24,845 nucleotides of DNA from a virus. Where the stretch lies: IMG/VR virus record IMGVR_UViG_3300025872_000290, positions 1 to 24,845 of that record; one strand, given 5' to 3'. A program made the position numbers and the translations under genes. Numbering within the stretch: position 1 is the stretch's first letter; every line of letters begins with the position of its first letter. Shown here in pieces: positions 1-22,766 of this stretch. Below the pieces are notes generated by a model. That model was not told the DNA's origin. It made no database searches and saw nothing but the letters and a program-made list of their open reading frames with translations.

Positions 1-3000
1 CTATTTGCATTCGCAGTAATCGACGTCGGTTGACCGGTAACTGCAATAGTCTTGAAGATCAGCTGATCTGATCCCTTATCGGTATTGGTCAGTGAAACTG
101 AACCACCAAGCGAGGCAGAACCTCCGGCTGACAGGCCAGAAGAACCTGATACCGTGAATGTGCTGGCCGTCAGCTTTGCGATATCGATTCCAGTTGCAAG
201 CTTTGCATTCGTAACATTAAGATCAGCAATCTTTGCTGTGGTTACCTGCGCATCACCGATCTTTATGGTAGTGACTGCTCCAGTACCAATCTTTGCCTCG
301 GTTACTGCGCCGTCACCAATCTTTGTAGCAGTAACAGCTCCAGTTCCAATCTTAGCCTCGACTACTGCACCGGCACCAATCGATGTTGCAAATGATCCCG
401 TGCCGCTACCACTTACGTCTCCGGTCAACTGTATCGTCTGGTCGCCGGTATTCGTTCCAGAAACTGTTGCGACGGCCGATACGGTTAGATTTCCGGAAAG
501 AGAAATTGTGCGGTCAGCATCGTTGACATTGACATTTAGCGTACGAGCCGCTGTCAGATCGGACGAATTATTGATCGCCAGATAATGAGAGGGATTTGTG
601 GTATCCCACAGGTATACGTCGTTGAAGTACCCGTTCTGAGTAGATGTTGTCGAACTCGACAGATATCCCAAAGCAGGAATATCTCCGGCCGAAAGTGTGG
701 CACCCGTTGTGACTAATCCCTTTGCATTGACAGTGACCTTGGTATATGTACCGGCCGTGACACCGGAGTTTGCCAGAGTAGAAGCAACTGATACGACAAC
801 ATTTCCTCCAAGGGCGGCTGCCGTAGTCGTGGTGCTTCCAGTGACATCACCGGTTAGAGCTACGTTGTAGGTTGGAGAAGGGAATCCTGCACCGGCCGTG
901 ACACTGGACCATGCTGGAGAATATGTGGTGCTCGTGATCGCTGTATTGCCCTTGACGGTCAGATCTCCTTCAATTACTACGCTTCCATCAGAATTGATTG
1001 TAAACCGATTAGGTGTGGCGAATGTATTATTTGTAAGAGCAACAACATTGACCGCGGTACTTCCAGCAGGAGATCCCGTTGCCTGGTTTCTCGTCAAGGT
1101 CAATCCGCCAAACGTTGGGGTTGCTGTTGAGTTGATACTCTGCGGAAGAGCCAATGTCAGAGTTGGGCCTGTCTGAGCCGATCCCGTAGTATTATTGACC
1201 AAGACTTGATTTGCTGTTCCAGTAACAGAGGTGATCTTGGCATCAGTATACGCTGTACCGATCGACGAAGCCTGCCATATTCCTGTTGTAACAGTTCCCA
1301 GAGTAGTAATACTACCGCTTCCGATAAGCGGAGAGTAAGCTCCAGTTGAGGTATATGCAGCGCTTCCGAGTGTACCACCGCCGCCGATATTGAGAGTAGA
1401 ACCATCAGTTCCGGAGAGAGTCAGCGTATTTGTTACTGAAAGCGTCTTAGCGTTTGTAACCGTTAGAGTTCCAGTAGTTGTGGAAATCGTGAGGCCGTTA
1501 TAAGTCTTGCCAGTCAGAGCTGCAGCAATACGACCATCGGCCAAAGTTCCGGAACTAATGTTGCTGGCATTGGTCGTATCAGTAGTAGCTGAAGCAGCAA
1601 GTCCAGCGATCTTTGAAGTGGCAATAGCAGCATTTGTAGCAATGTCAGCATTGACAATTGAATTGCCAAGAGAAAGTTTACCATATGCAATGGCAGCCGC
1701 GGCGTTGATGTCCGCGTTAACAATCGTGCCATCCAGGATCATGGCGCTTGTCACCGTTCCGCTGTCGCCTGTCGTAACAACTGTTCCGGTCGTATTTGCT
1801 GGTAAGCTAATCGTGCTTGTTCCGGCTGTTGCAACGGCCTGTAGAACCACAGAACCGGAGGTAGAACCAGGGAACGTAACTGATGAGATACCAGTCAAAG
1901 CCAGGTTTGCGCTAGTTCTGCTCAGAGAAACCGACGTCGTTCCAATGAACGTTACGTTATCCAGATGTGCCAGAGTTCCATCTCTGTCCTGGAAGGTCTG
2001 AATACGTGTTTGACCTGCGGTGATACCAGAAGATTCAAAGCGAGCGCGTTTCGTTGCTGCAGCATCGTCAATGATGAATGTTGTTGCATCTATCAGGCTC
2101 TTGTTCGTCAGAGTCTGCCCGGCCGATACCGCAGCAAAATCGTCATCGGTCAAGGCGGTATTGAACTGCGCCAATGTACCTGTGACTGTATTAGATCCTA
2201 GGGCAATACTCTTGTTTGTCAGTGTCTGAGCCGTAGCTAGACCCGCAAAGTCGTCATCTGAAAGAGCAGTATTGAACTGAGCCAGAGTACCGGTCAACGT
2301 ATTATTGGCTAGATTGACGGTCTTATTTGTTAACGTCTGGGTTGCAGCAAGAGCAGCAAAATCATCATCCGTCAACGCAGCATTGAATTGTGCTAGAGTG
2401 CCTGTGACCGTATTGGATCCTAGGGCGATACTCTTATTCGTCAGCGTCTGGGCTGTAGCCAAACCGGCAAAATCATCGTCGGTTAGTGAAGCGTTGAATT
2501 GTGTTAGAGTTCCAGTGATGCTGTTTGCTCCAAGCGTAATCGTCTTGTTCGTCAGGGTCTCAGATCCGGCCAGAGTCGCCAGAGTACCATCGAAATTAGG
2601 AACCGTCAGTGTGCGAGTGGTATTGGTCGTAATACCGGATACCTGAAACTGCAACTTCTTGGTTGAATCAGTCTCGTCGACGATGAATGTTGAAGAATCG
2701 ACAAGGCTCTTATTTGTCAGCGTTTGGCTTGCTGCCAGAGCTGCGAAATCATCATCGGTCAAAGCTGTATTGAACTGAGCCAGAGTGCCCGTAATTGTAT
2801 TTGAACCGAGAGCAATCGATTTGTTGGTCAGTGTTTGCGCTGCAGCCAGACCAGCAAAATCGTCATCGGTCAGTGAAGTATTGAACTGAGCCAGCGTACC
2901 GGTCAGCGTGTTCGTTCCTAACGTGATGGTCTTATTGGTCAGGGTCTCAGATCCGGCCAGAGTTGCCAAGGTTCCGGTTGCTGGAACAGTGACCACAGAT

Positions 3001-3926
3001 CCTGCGGCATTTGCTGTCAGAATCAGATTTCCTGTGTTGAGCGTGATAGTACGACCCTGGTTATTTACTCCAGTTCCACCATAGTTTGATGCAATTGTGA
3101 TACCTTGCCAGGTACCCTGGGTGATCGTTCCAACTTTAGTCAATGCTGAGTTGACGACGTTATCTCCAAGAGTGGTAGCGCTGAGAACCGACGTTCCAGC
3201 AATCGTAAAGACCTTTGTGCTAGCCAGGTTTAGACTCTCGCTGAAGGTCTTAGCACCATTGAAAGTGATAGCCGAATCCTTGACTTCATTCAGGGCACCG
3301 ACTAGATTGGTCTTCTCTGCGGTAGCCAGATTTGCAACCGTGCCAATATCTCTCTGAAGTTCGTTGATACCGGAGATTGCAGTCTTGGATGCTGTCTCAA
3401 GCTCGCGAGAATTGGTACCATTCGAAATTGTTTCGCCGATATCAACGATCGTATTGTATGAGACCGCCGTGATCGTCTTGCTTGTTGCCGTCAGAGTCTC
3501 GCCGACTGTAAAGGCTCCGGACACATTGTAGATAACCGCAGAATTTTCAACGGAATTAAACGAGAAAACCTTTGCGGTCTTGCTAGAAGTTGCTCCTGTG
3601 ATCGTCGAACCGACCGTAAGATCTCCGGCTCCTGACAGATAGATTCTGCTCTTTACGACATCTCCACCCACAAACGTATTAGCATTTGTCGGAATGACTG
3701 TCAATACATTTCCGACGATAGAATCAACTGTGGCTGTTGCTCCGCTGACAGATCCTGTCACAGTATTGCCGGCCGAGAACGAGTTCGCCGTGGCACCCTT
3801 GAAGACCAGTGTGGTCAGAGTGATGCGCGAGTCGAGGGTCGTGACCTCTCCTAATACCTTCGAGGTATCGTTGGTCTTTACCCTCCAGGTGTCAAAGGTA
3901 TCAGTACGGTAAACTTGGTTTGACAT
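1..3926 (-). CDS. Very large repeat-rich tail fibre / structural protein (3' end beyond window)
   Basis: This frame stays open from an ATG at 3926 to the left edge, giving 1308 complete codons with no stop, so the C-terminus is missing. The start (MSNQVYRTDTFDTW) resembles N-termini of fibre proteins in marine T4-like phages. Residues about 40-145 hold beta-type modules of the form F-x-x-G-x-x-V-T-G-x-x-S-G-A. The middle carries 37-residue repeats with the cores LTDDDFA and QTLTNK, and the part near the left edge carries 10-residue KIGTGAVTEA-like repeats. Such Gly/Thr/Ala-rich repeats are typical of trimeric fibre shafts. The protein probably sits at the baseplate periphery and contributes to host contact, although the receptor-binding tip is not in view. 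It starts 2 bp after the stop of the 74-aa gene and belongs to the leftward unit. The family call is firm; attachment site and receptor are unknown. Confidence 0.85.
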   Translation of the reverse strand, partial: MSNQVYRTDTFDTWRVKTNDTSKVLGEVTTLDSRITLTTLVFKGATANSFSAGNTVTGSVSGATATVDSIVGNVLTVIPTNANTFVGGDVVKSRIYLSGAGDLTVGSTITGATSSKTAKVFSFNSVENSAVIYNVSGAFTVGETLTATSKTITAVSYNTIVDIGETISNGTNSRELETASKTAISGINELQRDIGTVANLATAEKTNLVGALNEVKDSAITFNGAKTFSESLNLASTKVFTIAGTSVLSATTLGDNVVNSALTKVGTITQGTWQGITIASNYGGTGVNNQGRTITLNTGNLILTANAAGSVVTVPATGTLATLAGSETLTNKTITLGTNTLTGTLAQFNTSLTDDDFAGLAAAQTLTNKSIALGSNTITGTLAQFNTALTDDDFAALAASQTLTNKSLVDSSTFIVDETDSTKKLQFQVSGITTNTTRTLTVPNFDGTLATLAGSETLTNKTITLGANSITGTLTQFNASLTDDDFAGLATAQTLTNKSIALGSNTVTGTLAQFNAALTDDDFAALAATQTLTNKTVNLANNTLTGTLAQFNTALSDDDFAGLATAQTLTNKSIALGSNTVTGTLAQFNTALTDDDFAAVSAGQTLTNKSLIDATTFIIDDAAATKRARFESSGITAGQTRIQTFQDRDGTLAHLDNVTFIGTTSVSLSRTSANLALTGISSVTFPGSTSGSVVLQAVATAGTSTISLPANTTGTVVTTGDSGTVTSAMILDGTIVNADINAAAAIAYGKLSLGNSIVNADIATNAAIATSKIAGLAASATTDTTNASNISSGTLADGRIAAALTGKTYNGLTISTTTGTLTVTNAKTLSVTNTLTLSGTDGSTLNIGGGGTLGSAAYTSTGAYSPLIGSGSITTLGTVTTGIWQASSIGTAYTDAKITSVTGTANQVLVNNTTGSAQTGPTLTLALPQSINSTATPTFGGLTLTRNQATGSPAGSTAVNVVALTNNTFATPNRFTINSDGSVVIEGDLTVKGNTAITSTTYSPAWSSVTAGAGFPSPTYNVALTGDVTGSTTTTAAALGGNVVVSVASTLANSGVTAGTYTKVTVNAKGLVTTGATLSAGDIPALGYLSSSTTSTQNGYFNDVYLWDTTNPSHYLAINNSSDLTAARTLNVNVNDADRTISLSGNLTVSAVATVSGTNTGDQTIQLTGDVSGSGTGSFATSIGAGAVVEAKIGTGAVTATKIGDGAVTEAKIGTGAVTTIKIGDAQVTTAKIADLNVTNAKLATGIDIAKLTASTFTVSGSSGLSAGGSASLGGSVSLTNTDKGSDQLIFKTIAVTGQPTSITANAN
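191..390 (-). repeat. 30-bp tandem repeat coding for 10-aa KIGxGAVTxA units in the fibre
   Basis: The sequence ctttg/ctttatgg-like recurs at 201, 231, 261, 291, 321 and 351, an exact 30-bp period. On the minus strand this encodes units such as KIGTGAVTEA, KIGDGAVTEA, KIGDAQVTTA and KIADLNVTNA. Units decay toward the C-terminal side. Repeats of this kind occur in phage fibre shafts. The period is read directly from the sequence; the shaft role is inferred. Confidence 0.85.
2090..2950 (-). repeat. 111-bp tandem repeats coding for 37-aa LTNK/LTDDDFA units in the fibre
   Basis: The codons for the DDDFA core recur at about 2134, 2245, 2356 and 2467 (exactly 111 bp apart) and again at 2743 and 2854 (111 bp apart). 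A different segment of 165 bp beyond one period separates the two groups. Each unit encodes 37 residues with the pattern TLTNK, LGxNT, TGTLAQFN, LTDDDFA. Alternate units are more alike (DDDFAALA versus DDDFAGLA types), giving a 222-bp higher-order repeat. The intervening segment encodes VDSSTFIVDETDSTKK and ends in TLTVPNFDGTLATLAG, a common phage fibre element. Recombination between copies could change fibre length. Confidence 0.85.
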
Positions 3927-3928
3927 GA

Positions 3929-4153
3929 TTAGTTGTCTTTTTGCAGTAACTTATGAACAAGATTCTTTAGCTCATCTAACTCGGATTTCAGAGATTGAAT
4001 CTCATCCTCCTTGTGACGGCGGGACTGACGAAGAGCCATCCTCTGGGCATAGTTAGCACGGTTTCGATTCACGATCGCCTTGGAATGGAGATCGCGCTCT
4101 AAAAATGGGTTGTCTTGGACGACCGCCCGTGCCTGATTTGCCTGTTCGGACAT
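3929..4153 (-). CDS. Small coiled-coil protein (74 aa) between two virion-protein genes
   Basis: I do not recognise a named family. The N-terminal half is polar and rich in Asn, Arg and Ala (NRNRANYAQRMALRQSRRHK). The last 25 residues or so have a clear heptad pattern (EIQSLKSELDELKNLVHKLL), which suggests a short parallel coiled coil that could make a dimer or trimer. The gene sits between the 635-aa virion protein (stop at 4170) and the giant fibre (start 3926, two bases after this stop). This suggests a small connector, fibre-assembly factor or minor virion protein, but that is inference from position. The ATG at 4153 is the only sensible start. An AATAAATA late box lies 10 bp upstream of it, so the gene and the fibre may be transcribed from their own late promoter as well as by read-through. 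Confidence 0.7.
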   Translation of the reverse strand: MSEQANQARAVVQDNPFLERDLHSKAIVNRNRANYAQRMALRQSRRHKEDEIQSLKSELDELKNLVHKLLQKDN

Positions 4154-4163
4154 ACTCAGGCTC

Positions 4164-4171
4164 TATTTATT
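4164..4171 (-). promoter_or_regulatory. Late-promoter box AATAAATA before the 74-aa gene
   Basis: On the minus strand the sequence reads AATAAATA, matching the NATAAATA late-promoter consensus reported for T4-like cyanophages (T4 itself: TATAAATA). It lies in the 16-bp gap and 3' end of the 635-aa gene, 10 bp before the ATG at 4153. The predicted transcript would start only about 4-5 nt before that codon. Confidence 0.55.
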
Positions 4172-10931: not shown

Positions 10932-12650
10932 TTAAAATTCTGCGATGATACGAATGTCTTCGATCTGAGTTTCGCTACGAGCAATCGGAGAAGTACGGTT
11001 TTCTAGGAAGATGACGTCACCGCTGAAGTGAACATATTCGGATGCAGTAATCGCGCTAATGTTTCCACCTGCAACAGAATTGGCTGTTCCTGGTGTATAA
11101 GCAGTTATGGAATTTCCTGTTGAGAACGATCCATATCCAGTCTTGTCATTCTGGTGAATTCCTAGAACACGGTTCGAACCGCTGGTCGTTACTGTATCAA
11201 TATACGCCTTGGATGGAGGTGTTGCACCATTTTGAATATAATCTCCTACGTGGAACGTTCCACTTGGAGCAGTAATTGTAAACTTACGGAGAGCAGACAA
11301 TGTTGAGGAAATTGCCGTCACTGGATTTCCACCGGATAGTTCCTTTGGCTTCTTCACTAGTCCAACCTGACGGAAGAATGTATCAGCAGCAAAATCACCA
11401 GCACCTTCTTGGCCGGTCAATGTAGCAGCAATACCAACATAGAATCCGCCGAGTTCTTCAGCTGGAGATGAGCCGTGACCATTCTTTGGCGAAAGGACTG
11501 CGCGAGCATTGCATCCAGATCCGTTACCAACGACATCAACGAAGGCAACATTATAGTTTGCGCCATATGAGGTACCGGTAATATCGATCTTGACTACTTT
11601 CTGATTGGCAATCGTAGCAGTTGCAACCGCTCCACTTCCGTCACCATTGATCGTGATAGTCGGTACGCTCGTATATCCAGTGCCACCATAAGAAAGAGTC
11701 TGGGCTGTCGGATCATTCGGATCGATTGCTACGGTATAAATTTTTCCAGTCAGCGTCTTCTTTGCTGCGTTTTGGAACCTGATTCGGCTTTTTTCTTCTT
11801 CCGAAACGTCACCTGTCTCTGTAATAGTATCAACGTTTCCAAGCGTGATTGAAGTGAGTGTGCAGTTAACGGCACCACTTCCAGTGATAACTTCGCCGGC
11901 CACGAAATTTCCGCGAATATTGTAGACAATATAACTTCCAGCACTCGATCCTGTTGCATAGATCGTTCCAGTGGCTCCACTCGTATTTCCAATTAGAAAT
12001 GCTCCATTTGTGACAGCCGGAAGAGTTCCGCCAACTCCAGCAGCAACAACTGCAGTTGCTGCGCCGACAACCGTCTTGATCGGCATGTAACTATTCGTCA
12101 GAAACTTTGCAGCTTCAGTAGCTGTAATCTGGAACATGAACTTCCAGATGTAACCGTCTGCATACTTGTATGGATCGCCTTCGATATCTCCATTTCCATT
12201 AATCGTAGGAACATGGCTTGGCTTGTTCGTCGAGGCGATCGGATCTCCATTGGAATCTTTTGGAGCATGCAAGCACTTGTAAATTGCAAAGGTGTCTGTC
12301 AGGACATAAAACGGCGTATCGTTTCCGCGATCAAAGATGTCAGTCTTGTTATCATCCCAGGCTGCGTAAAATGCACCAGACTCCCAATTATAACGAGGAA
12401 TGAGATTGATGACATCGGTCGAACCGATGCTCTTCATGGCAATCATGTTCGAATCGGCATCTCTGAGCTCGAGAATGGTATCCTTCGGAAGTCCGCTGTT
12501 CGGAACAACGTCGTCGGTACCACCGATAGTGCTAGACCATTTGTCTGACTTGCCGATAAACAGATATACATTCTCGCGATCGTCAAGAATGTTCTGCTTA
12601 AAGTTTCTGGCGTTTAGATTACGGAATTCCGTTGAGATGATTGCTGACAT
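10932..12650 (-). CDS. gp8: Baseplate wedge protein gp8, enlarged (572 aa)
   Basis: T4 gp8 (334 aa) is a dimeric wedge protein. The same landmarks appear here in order: FIGKSDKWSS (31-40), INLIPRYNW (81-89), FAIYKCLHAP (121-130), ADGYIWKFMFQI (164-175), FRQVGLVKKP (426-435) and the C-terminal HFSGDVIFLENRTSPIARSE followed by TQIEDIRIIAEF (541-572). These correspond to the WSS, YRCL, GDGYVWEYLFEI, FRQISIITNP and SGEMIYMENRPP features of T4 gp8. The extra length lies mainly at 195-425 and 440-540. It holds beta-type modules (GNFVAGEVITGSGA; GGTGYTSVPTITI with a diverged second copy; SGTFHVGDYIQNGA). The gene follows the gp7-position gene after 5 bp. A perfect TATAAATA box lies 64 bp upstream, within the preceding gene. 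Start: ATG at 12650. Confidence 0.9.
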   Translation of the reverse strand: MSAIISTEFRNLNARNFKQNILDDRENVYLFIGKSDKWSSTIGGTDDVVPNSGLPKDTILELRDADSNMIAMKSIGSTDVINLIPRYNWESGAFYAAWDDNKTDIFDRGNDTPFYVLTDTFAIYKCLHAPKDSNGDPIASTNKPSHVPTINGNGDIEGDPYKYADGYIWKFMFQITATEAAKFLTNSYMPIKTVVGAATAVVAAGVGGTLPAVTNGAFLIGNTSGATGTIYATGSSAGSYIVYNIRGNFVAGEVITGSGAVNCTLTSITLGNVDTITETGDVSEEEKSRIRFQNAAKKTLTGKIYTVAIDPNDPTAQTLSYGGTGYTSVPTITINGDGSGAVATATIANQKVVKIDITGTSYGANYNVAFVDVVGNGSGCNARAVLSPKNGHGSSPAEELGGFYVGIAATLTGQEGAGDFAADTFFRQVGLVKKPKELSGGNPVTAISSTLSALRKFTITAPSGTFHVGDYIQNGATPPSKAYIDTVTTSGSNRVLGIHQNDKTGYGSFSTGNSITAYTPGTANSVAGGNISAITASEYVHFSGDVIFLENRTSPIARSETQIEDIRIIAEF

Positions 12651-12655
12651 GGTGC

Positions 12656-14116
12656 TTACGGTGTAAATTGGTACGTATTGATGAGAATACCATTCGGTTC
12701 ATATGAGACTGTGTTATTTATAGCCTCATTGATGGTGTTGTTTGAATAAGTTCCGATCGGATTAGAGCCAGTAAACTTCATGGATTCCAGGGTCTTATAG
12801 AAGACTTTAGACTGACTATTTCCTTCTCCCAGAAGTTCGAGTCTAAGAATGTTCTGGAAATCATATAGCACCCGCATATTGCGCTCAATGTATTCCAGCT
12901 GTCCTTGTTCGTTTAGTTGAATCAGATCGGTGTAGATCGATTCAATCAACATAGTCAAGTCCTCAAGACCAATCAATCCAGGCTGAAGTTTCGGCATCTT
13001 GGATGCTGTCTTCAGGTCTAAAAGCTCCACTGCCGTCAGAAGCAAGAAAATTTGGCCAAAGAAAATGAATCCAGCCGGATGGACAAGGCGATTAAATGAA
13101 TCTTTCCACTCGGAAGAATTAGTACCGGTTTTGACTACGTACGAATACCTCTGGTAGTAGTAAGAGTCATGAATCTTCTTACTATCTGAAAGGAATCCGT
13201 TATTATCAGTGTATCTTCCGAGTGAAGCGTTCCATGTTCCAGAAGAAGGTTTTAACGTATCGCTATAAGGATAGTAAACTTCGGCTTCATCTTGGTACAG
13301 GATCTTGAAGAACAACTCAATGGAATTCGATGATCCACGGAGAGAATAATACTTCATTAGCTTCTTGTAAGCATCGGCCTCCGAAATGTTAAATTTTCCT
13401 GGAGCATTAGCTGCAGTTTCTCTCTGCAGCATTTCGAAGAATCTTTGTGTTGCTCGATCGATATCACGCTCTTTTGTAATTCTGGAGATTGTATAGCTAG
13501 GATTGTCATAGATCGGCGTGATCTGACTGATGATTCTAGTAGTACCTTGAGTGATTCCAGTGATTTCGCCAGTTGCGTTAGAAACGACTCCTGTCACAAC
13601 CTTTCGGTTAGGAGAAGCAACAACCGCAAAATTTCCAACAATATTGTTTACCAGCAATGTATTGCCGGTAGCCAGGAGTACTTTGGCCGAAACCGGATTA
13701 TTCGAGGTATCGCGCGAACTCACTGATTCTCCAGCAATAAACGATCCCGAAACGTTTGTGAGAACCAATGTTTCTGATTCAGATCCGACAATAGTCGATC
13801 CTCTGATCAATGTACCGGTGACCTGATATAGCAGAAGTTCGTTGTCAGTGAATGCAGAAACTTTTCCGGTGATCTGAGCACCATCGAGGCCAATTGAAGT
13901 AATGTCTTCTCCGGCCGTGAATGTTCCTGCACCTGATCGAACTGCAACTCGATATCCGGAAGTTCCATCCTTGTTGACCAAGTCGTAGTAGTCTTTTAGG
14001 AATTCAATGAGCTTTGCCGCTTTTGGCTTAAGTGAATCCGGAAAAAGCTGCTCTACTCTGGCCACCTCTTTGGTGGACCTACGAGTACTGGCTGTTGACT
14101 CAATCAGTGAAGCCAT
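12656..14116 (-). CDS. Baseplate wedge protein in the gp7 position (486 aa)
   Basis: The gene lies between gp6 and gp8, exactly where T4 has gene 7. The product is 486 aa, against about 1030 in T4. Visible parts are a helical N-terminus (VEQLFPDSLKPKAAKLIEFL, residues 21-40) and a beta-rich insert at about 60-190 with modules such as GAGTFTAGEDITS and SGSFIAGESVSS. A mixed region (210-330) follows, including SEADAYKKLMKYYSLRGSSN and DSYYYQRYSYVVKT. The motif LVHPAGFIFFGQ (344-355) recurs in wedge proteins of marine T4-like phages. A wedge role, linking gp6/gp25 to gp8 and the periphery, is well supported by order. True gp7 homology needs structure or profile comparison. The ATG at 14116 is 2 bp after the gp6 stop. 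Confidence 0.75.
   Translation of the reverse strand: MASLIESTASTRRSTKEVARVEQLFPDSLKPKAAKLIEFLKDYYDLVNKDGTSGYRVAVRSGAGTFTAGEDITSIGLDGAQITGKVSAFTDNELLLYQVTGTLIRGSTIVGSESETLVLTNVSGSFIAGESVSSRDTSNNPVSAKVLLATGNTLLVNNIVGNFAVVASPNRKVVTGVVSNATGEITGITQGTTRIISQITPIYDNPSYTISRITKERDIDRATQRFFEMLQRETAANAPGKFNISEADAYKKLMKYYSLRGSSNSIELFFKILYQDEAEVYYPYSDTLKPSSGTWNASLGRYTDNNGFLSDSKKIHDSYYYQRYSYVVKTGTNSSEWKDSFNRLVHPAGFIFFGQIFLLLTAVELLDLKTASKMPKLQPGLIGLEDLTMLIESIYTDLIQLNEQGQLEYIERNMRVLYDFQNILRLELLGEGNSQSKVFYKTLESMKFTGSNPIGTYSNNTINEAINNTVSYEPNGILINTYQFTP
12715..12722 (-). promoter_or_regulatory. Late-promoter box TATAAATA upstream of gp8
   Basis: A perfect T4-type late box on the minus strand, inside the 3' end of the gp7-position gene and 64 bp before the gp8 ATG at 12650. 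A start about 6 nt downstream would give a leader near 58 nt, a conventional arrangement. It would let gp8 and later genes be boosted independently of the upstream wedge genes. Confidence 0.55.
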
Positions 14117-15957: not shown

Positions 15958-16410
15958 TTAACGGATGCGTTTGAGGTATAGGGTGATGTCCACCTGCTCG
16001 TCTACCGAGATGACGCGGAATCCGACGGTAACAGTATAAGAATTTCGATCTGATTGATCCTTTACTTCAACAGTGACGTCGTCGACTCTGGGCTCATACT
16101 TACGAAGTACCTTCTTGATTTCTTCACGAATGGAGATGATCGTAAACGAATCGGCCGGTTCAAATAGCAATGCAGAGAGATTGGATCCGATCCAAGGCTG
16201 AAAGGGTCTCTCGAAGAAATTCGTGAGAATCAGGTTTCTGACTGAATTTTTGACAGCGTCAATATCGGTCAGCGGGACGATATCGTTGAAGTTTGGATTT
16301 AATTCCAGCGAAAGATCCAGATCAGAAAACGAACGTCTTTTCGAGACCACTTGCGATCTATTCGTCGCAATGAATTCGTTGACATTGTAGTCTGAAAGGG
16401 TTTCCGCCAT
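15958..16410 (-). CDS. gp25: Baseplate wedge protein gp25 (150 aa)
   Basis: Members of the GPW/gp25 family bind gp6 and help start sheath polymerisation. The protein shows the family pattern: PLTDIDAVKNSVRNLILTNF (46-65), ERPFQPWIGSNLSALLFEP (67-85), then helix IREEIKKVLRKYEPRV with the conserved EPR triplet at residues 106-108. The EPR motif is characteristic of gp25 and its contractile-system relatives. T4 gp25 is 132 aa, so this copy is slightly longer at the N-terminus. It has been called lysozyme-like, but no catalytic triad is visible. A good Shine-Dalgarno sequence (GGTGG, 16415-16419 on the minus strand) precedes the ATG at 16410, and a TATAAATA box abuts it. Confidence 0.93.
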   Translation of the reverse strand: MAETLSDYNVNEFIATNRSQVVSKRRSFSDLDLSLELNPNFNDIVPLTDIDAVKNSVRNLILTNFFERPFQPWIGSNLSALLFEPADSFTIISIREEIKKVLRKYEPRVDDVTVEVKDQSDRNSYTVTVGFRVISVDEQVDITLYLKRIR

Positions 16411-16419
16411 AATTCCACC

Positions 16420-16427
16420 TATTTATA
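16420..16427 (-). promoter_or_regulatory. Late-promoter box TATAAATA directly before the gp25 Shine-Dalgarno site
   Basis: A perfect TATAAATA on the minus strand in the 31-bp gap before gp25. The GGTGG ribosome-binding site follows immediately and the ATG is 9 bp from the box. If transcription starts about 6 nt after the box, the Shine-Dalgarno site would lie at or upstream of the transcript start. The site may then serve mainly read-through transcripts. Confidence 0.55.
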
Positions 16428-16441
16428 CAGCATTTCTGAGG

Positions 16442-17218
16442 TCAGCCCGGACCCTTATAATTCGTCTGAATCGTCGAAACAACGGCCTCGCTAGTCTCGG
16501 GATTGCCTGATGGGACGACGACTTCCTTTGCCTCGGTGACAACTGCACCGGTTGCCGTATTCATCTTGATGTTCGGAATGTCTTTGCAGAGATCCAAGGA
16601 CAGCGCAGCAAGGTTTCCTATCTTACCGGCTGCGTCCAGAAGTTTTGATGCAGCGGTTAAACCGGTCTGAACTCCTTGCAGCTTGGTATTGATGTTGCCA
16701 GATTTGAGGTTGGTTTTTGAACTCTTGATCAGCGAAGGAATCTCGGTTGACAGATTTTGAAGCTGCGCTGATTCATCAAGCATTGCGATCGTCGTGGACA
16801 TATTGAGACCAGGAATACTGGTCTGCCACTTTCGGATGAAACTGGAATACGATGCAGGGCCAGCTCCCTTGAGGGCCTTCAATTCTGAGTAAAAGGCATC
16901 AACCTTTGCCACGCTATTGGCAGTCTGTGTGATCTTCTGAACATACGTCTGCGCAGCCGGAACTTTTGGTCCCCATTTGTTCAGGAACTGCGCAATTGCC
17001 TGTGGATTCGGATTGCTTTTCAGGGCAGCAAGTTCACCCTGAAACGAATATACCTCAGCAACTTTTGTCTGGACCGTCTGTATCTTTGACTGCGCCTCTG
17101 CAATCTTGGACTGCAGAGATGCCAGGCCGCTCTTTCCGTTTTGGAGAACATCCTTGATGCCCCCGGTCGTAGAAGTGAGGGAATCGAGGGACGAATTACT
17201 TCCGCAGAGTAATGACAT
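16442..17218 (-). CDS. Helical virion-associated protein of unknown function (258 aa)
   Basis: I do not recognise the family with confidence. The sequence is largely helical. Residues about 19-65 form a Gln/Lys/Ala-rich segment with coiled-coil character (LQSKIAEAQSKIQTVQTKVA), and two related stretches follow: AVYSFQ-type helix then LAALKSNPNPQAIAQFLNKW, and FYSELKALKGAGPASYSSFI with RKW. The paired ALK-(6-8)-FL/FI-(K)-W pattern suggests an internal duplication. The C-terminus is a flexible, acidic tail ending NYKGPG. A protein of similar character occupies the place between gp5 and gp25 in marine T4-like phages, which suggests a minor baseplate or hub protein. The ATG is 1 bp after the gp5 stop (TAA T ATG), implying translational coupling. 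No Shine-Dalgarno sequence is obvious. Confidence 0.65.
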   Translation of the reverse strand: MSLLCGSNSSLDSLTSTTGGIKDVLQNGKSGLASLQSKIAEAQSKIQTVQTKVAEVYSFQGELAALKSNPNPQAIAQFLNKWGPKVPAAQTYVQKITQTANSVAKVDAFYSELKALKGAGPASYSSFIRKWQTSIPGLNMSTTIAMLDESAQLQNLSTEIPSLIKSSKTNLKSGNINTKLQGVQTGLTAASKLLDAAGKIGNLAALSLDLCKDIPNIKMNTATGAVVTEAKEVVVPSGNPETSEAVVSTIQTNYKGPG

Positions 17219-20881: not shown

Positions 20882-21670
20882 TCAGTATTTGGCTAACTTA
20901 TATTGGTCCTCGCGAGTGAGAGCCTTTGTTTCCTGGAACTTCATGCTGACATCTACTCCGATCGGCGATCCGTCTTCATGGAACATGTTGCTATCAGCAT
21001 TGTAGGTTGAGGAGAATGATAACAGAAAACATTCCTCGTAAATCTTAGGAATAAACTTGTTCTCCTCAGTTCCGCTATAAAATTTGATAGACCATACCGG
21101 AGGAAAGCTCAATACTAAACCTGCAGTATTGGATGCCGGATAGAGATTCAGGCGAAAAATCGTATTGATGTCCTTGATGACCGTAGTATCGCGTTCATCC
21201 TGTGGCATCATCTTAAACGAAAACTCAAATTCGCGAACTGATGTTCCCTGAAATGATACTGCCCTTCCTGGGTTTTGCACTCGCTTTGTAGCTAAAGTTA
21301 CGGCCTCGGCAACATTGGCATATTTGTTCTCGGCGTATTCTTTTGCCAGGATGTTTGCGGCCACGGCACCGACGTTTTTAAGCTGATCGGTCATCGTCCC
21401 AGATGTCTTATCAGTGTCAAATCCTAGTAAACCCAGATCGACATTAGAGTATTCAGCATTATCGGCAAATGTTAATCCTGAAGGAATAGGAAAATGAATA
21501 GACTTTCCTCCACATTCAAATCTGACATGGGGGAAATTGGCACGCTCGTTTCGCATCCTTGTGGGAAATGCAAAAATAGAATTCTGCGAAGCTACGTACT
21601 CATTTACGTTCGCAGCTCTTTTATCGTTGTCCTGACGTGATGTAGGTGATAGGATTGATAGGCCAGGCAT
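20882..21670 (-). CDS. gp48: Tail-tube-cap baseplate protein gp48 (262 aa)
   Basis: T4 gp48 caps the hub and, with gp54, starts tail-tube polymerisation. The central block (FEFSFKMMPQDERDTTVIKD, then INTIFRLNLYPA) and SFPPVWSIKFY are typical of gp48-type proteins in T4-like phages. The C-terminus has MFHEDGSPIGVDVSMKFQET and then REDQYKL, the last strand of a tube-like fold. The product is shorter than T4 gp48 (364 aa). It is the first gene of the leftward unit. A TATAAATA box ends 8 bp before the ATG at 21670 and no Shine-Dalgarno sequence is present in that space, so its message may be nearly leaderless. The next in-frame Met is too far into the conserved protein to be the start. Confidence 0.85.
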   Translation of the reverse strand: MPGLSILSPTSRQDNDKRAANVNEYVASQNSIFAFPTRMRNERANFPHVRFECGGKSIHFPIPSGLTFADNAEYSNVDLGLLGFDTDKTSGTMTDQLKNVGAVAANILAKEYAENKYANVAEAVTLATKRVQNPGRAVSFQGTSVREFEFSFKMMPQDERDTTVIKDINTIFRLNLYPASNTAGLVLSFPPVWSIKFYSGTEENKFIPKIYEECFLLSFSSTYNADSNMFHEDGSPIGVDVSMKFQETKALTREDQYKLAKY

Positions 21671-21675
21671 AAATA
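21668..21675 (+). promoter_or_regulatory. Possible late-promoter box CATAAATA for gp4
   Basis: CATAAATA on the plus strand fits the relaxed NATAAATA consensus. A start near 21682 would give gp4 a leader of about 26 nt that includes its GGAG site. Its first three bases are the complement of the gp48 start codon, so the match could partly be chance. Confidence 0.4.
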
Positions 21676-21678
21676 CAG

Positions 21679-21686
21679 TATTTATA
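21679..21686 (-). promoter_or_regulatory. Late-promoter box TATAAATA for the leftward baseplate unit
   Basis: A perfect T4-type late box on the minus strand in the 37-bp divergent gap, ending 8 bp before the gp48 ATG. It is the natural promoter for the whole leftward unit. The bases between box and ATG (CTGTATTT) contain no ribosome-binding site. Confidence 0.65.
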
Positions 21687-21695
21687 CTGCATTCC

Positions 21696-21699
21696 GGAG
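21696..21699 (+). promoter_or_regulatory. gp4: Shine-Dalgarno GGAG that fixes the TTG start of gp4
   Basis: GGAG lies 8 bp before the TTG at 21708. No ATG or GTG in frame lies between it and the conserved SYKGKFSPKN sequence, so TTG is the supported start. Confidence 0.75.
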
Positions 21700-21707
21700 C
21701 AATCGAT

Positions 21708-22148
21708 TTGAGTTACAAAGGCAAATTTTCACCAAAGAATCCATCAAAGTACCGAGGCGATGTCACTAACATCGTCTATCGTTCTCTGTGGGAACGCCAG
21801 GTATTTCGCTGGCTTGACGACAATTCGTTTGTCAAGTGCTGGTCATCCGAGGAAACAGTGGTGCCATATCGGTGCAAGACTGATGGAAAGCTGCATCGAT
21901 ACTTCGTGGATGTCAAGATCGAATTCACCGACGGCCGAGTGTTTCTGGTAGAGATCAAGCCAAAGAAGGAAACTCTTCCTCCTCGCAACACTGGTCGCAA
22001 AACCAAGAAGTACATCACTGAGGTAATGACATACGCCAAGAACATCAGTAAGTGGGAGGCAGCAAAGGAGTTTGCCGAGGACCGAGGTTGGTCGTTTGAG
22101 GTCTGGAATGAAGATTTTCTGAAAAGTCTAGGGATCAAAATCCTCTAA
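21708..22148 (+). CDS. gp4: Head completion protein gp4, nuclease-fold (146 aa)
   Basis: T4 gp4 (also called gp50/65 in older maps) is needed to finish DNA-filled heads before tail joining and has a PD-(D/E)XK nuclease-like fold related to TnsA. The match to T4 gp4 as I remember it runs along the whole protein: YKGKFSPKNPSKYRGD (3-18), YRSLWERQVFRWLD (24-37), YFVDVKIEF (65-73), FLVEIKPKKETLPP (79-92), then TYAKNISKWEAAKEFAEDRG (108-127). The likely active residues are D68, E82 and K84, with E29 nearby. It starts with TTG behind a good GGAG. It diverges from gp48 and is the first gene of the rightward unit. In T4 the gene also neighbours gene 53, so this piece of order is partly kept. Confidence 0.93.
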   Translation: MSYKGKFSPKNPSKYRGDVTNIVYRSLWERQVFRWLDDNSFVKCWSSEETVVPYRCKTDGKLHRYFVDVKIEFTDGRVFLVEIKPKKETLPPRNTGRKTKKYITEVMTYAKNISKWEAAKEFAEDRGWSFEVWNEDFLKSLGIKIL

Positions 22149-22155
22149 AATAGCC

Positions 22156-22163
22156 TATAAATA
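22156..22163 (+). promoter_or_regulatory. Late-promoter box TATAAATA before the 198-aa gene
   Basis: A perfect late box on the plus strand in the 21-bp gap after gp4, with its last base 6 bp before the ATG at 22170. The expected transcript start is at or next to that ATG. Confidence 0.6.
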
Positions 22164-22169
22164 GTGACC

Positions 22170-22766
22170 ATGGCGTCACTGTTCGACACACTCAGAAAAG
22201 AATCTACTGCGACCGGCTTCGCAGCACGATCGAAGGAGGCCCGTGACTGGTTCATGGAGAAAGCTCGTGAACTGAATGGTCAGATCAACCGAAAGAAGCT
22301 CCTGAACGATCCTGCTGTAAAGAACAGGCCGAATCCTCAGTGGGGATTCATGTACATGTTCGTATACGACGCCCTGCACAAGGATACGCTGCCATACTAC
22401 GATCGCTTTCCCCTAATCATCCTGTTAAAGCCGGCCGAGGGCGGTTTCCTAGGAATGAATCTTCACTATCTAGAACCACGCGTACGCGCCATTTTCTTGG
22501 ACAAATTGCTGGCTACACTGAAGGACGATGAGCTGACCGAAAGAACTCGCTTGCGTCTACGTTATCAACTACTGGCCTCGGCACAGCGGTTTCGCTACTT
22601 TAGGCCATGCCTGAAGCATTACCTCTGGGATCAGATCGGCAGCCGAATTGCCCAGGTTCATGCTCCAGATTGGGAGACTGCGATCTTTCTTCCGACAGAA
22701 CATTTCAAGGGTGCTACAAAGCAGAAAGTCTGGAGAGAGTCCAGAAAGGTCTATCAAAAATCATAA
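22170..22766 (+). CDS. Conserved T4-superfamily protein of unknown function (198 aa)
   Basis: I cannot name it firmly. The core LPYYDRFPLIILLKPAEGGF followed by LGMNLHYLEPRVRAIFLDKL is a well conserved block in marine and other T4-like phages. There the protein is mostly annotated as hypothetical; a role as a DNA-end protector (gp2-like) next to gp4 can be considered but is not shown. The N-terminal 60 residues are helical and basic (KARELNGQINRKKLLNDPAV), and the C-terminus is also basic (KGATKQKVWRESRKVYQKS), which would suit DNA or neck contact. A GTG at 22164 would add two residues, but the ATG at 22170 (MASLFDTL) is the more natural start. A TATAAATA box ends 6 bp before it and no Shine-Dalgarno sequence is seen. 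Confidence 0.75.
   Translation: MASLFDTLRKESTATGFAARSKEARDWFMEKARELNGQINRKKLLNDPAVKNRPNPQWGFMYMFVYDALHKDTLPYYDRFPLIILLKPAEGGFLGMNLHYLEPRVRAIFLDKLLATLKDDELTERTRLRLRYQLLASAQRFRYFRPCLKHYLWDQIGSRIAQVHAPDWETAIFLPTEHFKGATKQKVWRESRKVYQKS

Follow-up and report, generated by a model that had tools for sequence, protein, structure and literature searches.

T4-like phages of one lineage carry T4-type late promoter boxes at about the shortest distance that would let transcription start on the start codon or 1-5 nt before it. We consider it likely, though well short of certain, that the genes behind these boxes are translated as leaderless mRNAs. Comparison with related phages makes leaderless or near-leaderless late mRNAs a well-supported prediction for the lineage. 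The features that suggest this reading are a peak at a gap of five bases between box and ATG, the lack of any TATAAATA box closer than that, the use of ATG starts, the scarcity of Shine-Dalgarno (SD) sites, a pyrimidine before the A of the ATG, and the conservation of the layout at gp2 and gp25 across different hosts. We infer that the boxes serve as promoters in the window phage, that +1 lies as in T4 and that the ribosome takes the leaderless route.

In the mechanism that we propose, the box would be read by the gp55 sigma factor, as in T4, and would be fixed so that RNA polymerase begins at the start codon or 1-5 nt ahead of it. Every short-gap gene would obtain an mRNA of its own late in infection, beginning at or almost at the AUG, and this 5'-terminal AUG would be used by the host ribosome through the leaderless route, with no SD pairing. 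Longer leaders would persist at other late genes of these phages, and genes would switch between the two states in evolution. T4 late promoters are described with A(-13) in place of T in the available text of a review (PMC2988020). We read this position as placing the box at -13 to -6 and +1 on the sixth base after the box. Hence, at a gap of exactly 5, +1 would by the T4 rule coincide with the A of the ATG. Gaps of 6-10 prevail in the window and in most of the phages closest to it, so the case for strict leaderlessness comes from more distant relatives, and a leader of 3-5 nt may not act like one of 0 nt.

Late boxes and genes of the window

The window is the whole stretch of DNA analysed, a fragment of 24,845 bases (IMGVR_UViG_3300025872_000290) with a T4-like phage structural gene cluster. 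According to PHROG matches, whose product names we translated into gp numbers, its plus strand carries gp4, gp2, gp19, a baseplate hub protein and a hub assembly catalyst, and its minus strand gp48, a gp53-like protein, gp5, gp25, gp6, gp8 and large proteins annotated without a function. A 258-aa protein between gp5 and gp25 (16442-17218) has no PHROG match, and a 1308-aa ORF at the left end (3-3926) has a single weak one. The nearest named phages by gp6 are Melnitz (40%), Mosig (37%) and HTVC008M (36%), followed by cyanophages, and by gp2 the nearest is C48C1 (44%); a nucleotide search among named phages found no near relative of the window. The tRNA genes in 16 stretches of the window's clade came down to one tRNA-Met, which gives no clue to the host. 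A search of genome contigs detected gp2 in six contigs of metagenome-assembled genomes (MAGs), namely two Bacteroidetes, two Rhodobacteraceae, Opitutia and Neisseriaceae, and in two of the six (L273 and L274) gp2 lies at gap 5. A host assignment from these contigs was rejected as too weak, given their number and mixed taxa.

The window contains six NATAAATA boxes (Table 1). In four of them the gap to the ATG is 6, 8, 9 and 10 bp, for gp2, gp48, gp25 and a 74-aa virion gene, respectively, so that the gaps given in the original prediction were all reproduced on recounting; the sixth box, that of gp4, was absent from it. The boxes fit the T4-type late box (8 bp, TATAAATA, variable first base) and lie upstream of virion genes (gp2, gp4, gp8, gp25, gp48 and the 74-aa gene) that would be expressed late, as in T4. 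TATAAATA occurs four times in the window against 0.44 expected, a count reached by none of 100 shuffles. ATAAATA occurs six times against 2.94 expected, which nine of 100 shuffles reach and which is not significant alone.

Table 1. Late boxes of the window and the genes behind them; the gap is the number of bases between box and ATG, and leaders are predictions by the T4 rule
Feature	Position	Strand	Remarks
gp2 late box, TATAAATA	22156..22163	+	gap 6 to ATG 22170
gp2, DNA end protector	22170..22766	+	phrog_429, E 2.8e-54; predicted leader 1 nt, near-leaderless
gp48 late box, TATAAATA	21679..21686	-	gap 8 to ATG 21670
gp48, baseplate tail tube cap	20882..21670	-	phrog_230; next gene upstream is gp4, on the opposite strand
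gp4 box, CATAAATA	21668..21675	+	gap 32; ordinary leader, about 27 nt
gp4, head closure	21708..22148	+	phrog_218; TTG start, GGAG at 21696-21699
gp25 late box, TATAAATA	16420..16427	-	gap 9 to ATG 16410
gp25, baseplate wedge subunit	15958..16410	-	phrog_261
74-aa gene box, AATAAATA	4164..4171	-	gap 10 to ATG 4153; overlaps the stop codon of the upstream gene
74-aa virion structural protein	3929..4153	-	phrog_473
gp8 box, TATAAATA	12715..12722	-	gap 64 to ATG 12650; within the 3' end of the upstream gene; ordinary leader, about 59 nt
gp8, baseplate wedge subunit	10932..12650	-	phrog_438

With +1 on the sixth base past the box, the predicted leaders of gp48, gp25 and the 74-aa gene are 3, 4 and 5 nt, which together with that of gp2 agrees with the 0-5 nt proposed originally. 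None of the four short gaps contains GGAG, GAGG or AGGA, where the original prediction had named three of the four as lacking an SD site; the gp25 gap has ggtgga, a weak purine run. The gp8 leader is of ordinary length, as claimed, at 59 nt rather than 58. An in-frame GTG directly follows the gp2 box (22164) and would lie upstream of the predicted +1.

Two observations concern the gp4 region. The boxes of gp4 and gp48 face each other only 3 bp apart between the divergent genes (CATAAATA-CAG-TATTTATA, 21668-21686), and a similar inverted pair with wider spacing is found upstream of gp4 in T4 and C48C1 and in the MAG contigs L273 and L274. Furthermore, gp4, which starts with TTG behind an ordinary leader and has its GGAG 8 nt upstream, directly precedes gp2, for which a near-leaderless mRNA is predicted.

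Spacing of boxes and start codons in the lineage

We picked 160 related loci by protein similarity, 80 with gp2 and 80 with gp25, ignoring promoters. Together with the window they yielded 255 gaps between TATAAATA and ATG, of which none falls at 0-4, 61 at 5, 31 at 6-10 and 7 at 11-21, and a second mode of 70 lies at 31-60. (Duplicates by context were removed in these pooled gap counts, as in those of start codons, SD sites, gp25, gp48 and gp4 classes and -1 bases below.) Exactly 5 is the commonest gap across the related loci, and three control words in the same set have no occurrence at this distance.

As gp2 and gp25 had been the basis for selecting the 160 loci, the boxes were next counted genome-wide in nine records of the lineage, comprising six fragments (the window, G000, and G001-G005) and the complete HTVC008M, Mosig and Melnitz; ORFs and their neighbours were called mechanically, with no gene finder. 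In these records, 34 of 123 TATAAATA boxes are followed by the ATG of an ORF at a gap of 5-10 bp, and none at a smaller gap. For [ACG]ATAAATA, 22 of 105 lie at this distance and 2 of 105 at a gap below 5. By contrast, T4, Syn9, S-PM2, phiM12 and OspM_OC together have none at gap 5-10 (0/75 for TATAAATA and 0/169 for [ACG]ATAAATA). Fisher tests of the lineage against these five phages gave 2e-8 for TATAAATA and 1.5e-10 for [ACG]ATAAATA, p-values that ignore the shared descent of these related sequences. C48C1, excluded from this comparison and placed in group B of the 56-word and nine-record NATAAATA counts, has one of 25 TATAAATA at gap 5 and one at gap 2. The original prediction had opposed the leaderless reading to box positions with no preference for start codons; counted genome-wide, the preference is present, and the reading is not refuted.

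Chance, or a wrong choice of start codons, could in principle produce such an arrangement, and the window alone, with its few boxes and a non-significant loose NATAAATA count, would leave room for it. This explanation is hardly credible in view of the gap distribution in the relatives and of the nine-record counts, where the control words give 1/50 (reversed) and 0/66 (TAAATATA) at gap 5-10. Moreover, when 56 words of the same letters are ranked by their occurrences at gap 5-10 in the nine records, TATAAATA comes first with 34 and the next word has 10. At gap 0-4 the relation is the opposite, with 0/123 for TATAAATA vs 91/5199 for the 55 other words. A search for TATAAATA-N4-10-ATG that dispenses with ORFs gave 9 matches vs 1 for the reversed pattern in HTVC008M and 23 vs 1 in G001-G005 together, compared with 3 vs 5 in T4 and 0 vs 3 in S-PM2. 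As to misannotation, the deposited start is the short-gap ATG in all 11 cases within the annotation examined, 8/8 in HTVC008M (of 12) and 3/3 in Mosig (of 8); the Melnitz cases all fall outside the annotation compared. In addition, tblastn matches of gp2 relatives begin at or beside the short-gap ATGs. We therefore rejected chance and misannotation on the strength of the lineage-wide enrichment at gap 5-10 and of the first rank of TATAAATA among the 56 words. The observation itself is confirmed, as chance falls far short of explaining how the boxes cluster 5-10 bp before the ATG throughout the lineage.

The layout is unevenly distributed. Some IMG relatives have few or no TATAAATA at gap 5-10 (G006 0/16, G007 1/10, G008 0/4), and Melnitz has 2/25. 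In C48C1 and G007, otherwise long-leader records, the sole gene with a 5-10 bp gap encodes an 84-aa protein that looks alike by eye in the two (104644, minus strand, gap 5, and 8380, minus strand, gap 6, respectively).

Start codons, Shine-Dalgarno sites and routes of translation

Start codons differ between short and long gaps. With TATAAATA at gap 5-10, 108 genes start with ATG and none with GTG or TTG, vs 122 ATG, 11 GTG and 12 TTG at gap 26-60; [ACG]ATAAATA at gap 5-10 precedes 26 ATG and 2 TTG. When all NATAAATA boxes of the nine records are taken, gap 5-10 gives 57 ATG, 1 TTG and 0 GTG, in keeping with the AUG start of leaderless mRNAs, and gap 22-60 gives 69, 15 and 7. A pyrimidine at -1 and a purine at +1 are the rule at transcription start sites, so a pyrimidine before the ATG is expected at gap 5 if the RNA starts on that A. 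Such a base is present at 74 of the 79 gap-5 sites, which are related rather than independent (45 distinct box-plus-gap sequences), vs 100 of 175 at gap 22-60.

The SD 4-mers GGAG, GAGG and AGGA are found in 9 of 125 cases at gap 5-10 vs 54 of 140 at gap 22-60. The lack of SD sites typical of leaderless mRNA also holds when AAGG is counted (17/125 at gap 5-10). Within the window's clade 1/30 of the cases at gap 5-10 have an SD 4-mer. Box-less genes of this clade (the window and G001-G005) have an SD 4-mer in 8-20% of cases, by our estimate about the level of random sequence, compared with 42% in HTVC008M and 52% in T4. The missing SD sites at short gaps therefore say little within the window's clade, whose host may use SD pairing little, and the contrast is carried by the pooled set and by HTVC008M (2/12 vs 4/6).

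This scant use of SD sites would also suit a motif that acts in the RNA, where A/U-rich sequence covering -13 to -6 relative to the ATG would stand in for the SD site in hosts ignoring it. We regard this as very unlikely. Without TATAAATA, the set of 56 same-letter words reaches 66/5199 at gap 5-10, no word having more than 10, and cyanophages with weak SD use too (Syn9 0.24, S-PM2 0.23) have no box at this distance. Besides, the sequence is that of the T4 late box, and its first letter varies as in the T4 and S-PM2 lists.

If the boxes are promoters, their short transcripts could still be hardly translated, the proteins coming instead from long read-through mRNAs off upstream boxes and the short gap from genome compaction. 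Called ORFs place a neighbour on the same strand upstream of 43 of the 56 short-gap genes, and in the window gp2, gp25 and the 74-aa gene follow closely behind such a neighbour. However, by the same ORF calls the upstream neighbour of the other 13 genes is on the opposite strand. For gp48 of the window and gp2 of HTVC008M this neighbour is gp4 by gene identity, so adjacent same-strand read-through is unavailable to these two. Compaction gives no reason for the limit and peak at 5, nor for ATG-only starts, and read-through mRNAs would mostly also be devoid of SD sites. T4 and the cyanophages are presumably closely packed too, yet together with phiM12 and OspM_OC they place none of their 75 boxes at gap 5-10. 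Altogether, translation by read-through in place of the short transcripts appears distinctly improbable. The 43 genes with a same-strand neighbour could use either route.

Conservation, known systems and phage bS21

The predicted leaderless layout is a property of particular genes. The nine records hold 56 short-gap genes in 29 families, among which gp2 has the layout in 9/9 records and gp25 in 8/9. In the 160-locus set, the gp2 listing covers 75 of 80 loci (L013, L029, L036, L043 and L055 left out). Of 42 gp2 loci with at least 60% identity, the 38 with upstream sequence (the same loci except L055 left out) all have gaps of 5-9, namely 5 in 3, 6 in 20, 7 in 9 and 9 in 6, and loci below 60% have mixed box layouts. 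A gp2 tree that kept 70 of 98 proteins (Syn9 gave no row) includes 48 short, 9 long and 12 box-less rows and one that is not assessable. The window's clade is short in 25 of 26 rows, the 26th being without upstream sequence. Over the whole tree, well-supported branches require that the short state changed at least six times; the T4 label should be disregarded in this tree, as the T4 start was badly chosen. Among 52 classed gp25 loci, 35 have a gap of exactly 5 and 9 a gap of 6-10, whereas the gap is short in only 6/69 classed gp48 loci and 5/61 gp4 loci, which makes the layout gene-specific. Orthologues may differ in state: gp25 of Melnitz has a 16-bp gap with an SD site. Likewise, a 112-aa family matching 'L-shaped tail fiber protein assembly' has a short gap in all five of G001-G005, and the HTVC008M gene with this annotation (46310) has an 18-bp gap with an SD site. 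The mixed strategy proposed originally is thus partly supported, inasmuch as the same records have other boxes at 22-60-bp gaps and orthologues differ in state.

The boxes resemble the T4 late promoters, dependent on gp55/gp33/gp45, in the 8-bp sequence, the variable first base and the position upstream of virion genes, as far as the available text of PMC2988020 describes them; our count of 32 perfect boxes in T4 equals the 32 perfect sites given there. In contrast to the lineage, T4 has 0/32 TATAAATA and 0/33 [ACG]ATAAATA at 5-10 bp before the ATG of an ORF. Its shortest TATAAATA gaps are 13-18, and six of its seven genes at gap 11-21 have an SD 4-mer. A transcriptome of Syn9 reportedly exists (Doron and others, 2016).

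A promoter element directly before the ORF is also known from Deinococcus-Thermus, where a -10 motif adjoins ORFs, mostly at about 6-7 bp, and is read as a sign of leaderless mRNA (PMC12340547, available part). That element is a bacterial TANNNT motif, whereas here it is a phage late promoter in a layout absent from the T4 and cyanophage relatives. Leaderless initiation in E. coli depends on AUG, as stated in the accessible portion of PMC4965119, and the short-gap genes would share with lambda cI and the other E. coli leaderless mRNAs covered there a 5'-terminal AUG, the dependence on AUG and the lack of SD sites. Unlike the lambda cI cases, many late genes are involved here. The AR9 paper describes phage transcripts as often leaderless.

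The cultured phages with the layout belong to the pelagimyophages and Melnitz, which also have ribosomal protein S21 (PMC7029224 and PMC9004378, both in the parts available). Within those parts, late-promoter prediction was unsuccessful in the pelagimyophage survey (PMC7029224), which has no words beginning with 'leader', and 15 late promoters were counted in Melnitz (PMC9004378). Apart from a gene-prediction paper whose title they cite, the latter paper and that on Mosig (PMC7892664) do not use the word 'leaderless'. Taken singly, the late box and leaderless initiation are known already; their combination in T4-like phages appears to be new. A literature search found no paper combining late promoter, leaderless and TATAAATA, and none of the matches listed, in the openly available parts of the literature, reports leaderless late transcripts in T4-like phages. 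If our reading is correct, leaderless mRNAs are the source of some virion proteins in a lineage of T4-like phages infecting aquatic bacteria, but not in T4 and the cyanophages with the same box. Orthologous genes would then be at hand in leaderless and leadered form to investigate the reasons for leaderless translation and its timing, and start codons could be placed from the box. We would also guess that the short leaders are a possible reason for the failed promoter prediction in pelagimyophages.

According to the available text of PMC7029224, S21 belongs to the core of pelagimyophages, and among translation-related features it is what sets them apart most significantly from cyanomyophages. 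For Bacteroidetes, a proposal exists that phage bS21 selects phage transcripts late in infection (PMC9723584, available part). A late translation programme of the lineage's own, in which chosen virion mRNAs begin at the AUG and phage bS21 makes host ribosomes prefer them, would join these observations to ours, although we consider it rather doubtful. Leaderless late mRNAs, if real, would in any case provide a concrete hypothesis for bS21 in pelagimyophages. All three cultured phages with the layout (HTVC008M, Mosig and Melnitz) encode bS21, vs 0/12 of the other named records searched, but the three are kin, so the association may reflect one event. No bS21 was found in 33 fragments detected by gp2 of at least 60% identity (0/33), incomplete genomes in which the gene may lie elsewhere. 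Among 48 IMG records searched, part of those behind the 160 loci, one fragment encodes bS21, and the locus of that same record (L149) has two short-gap genes, at gaps 5 and 6.
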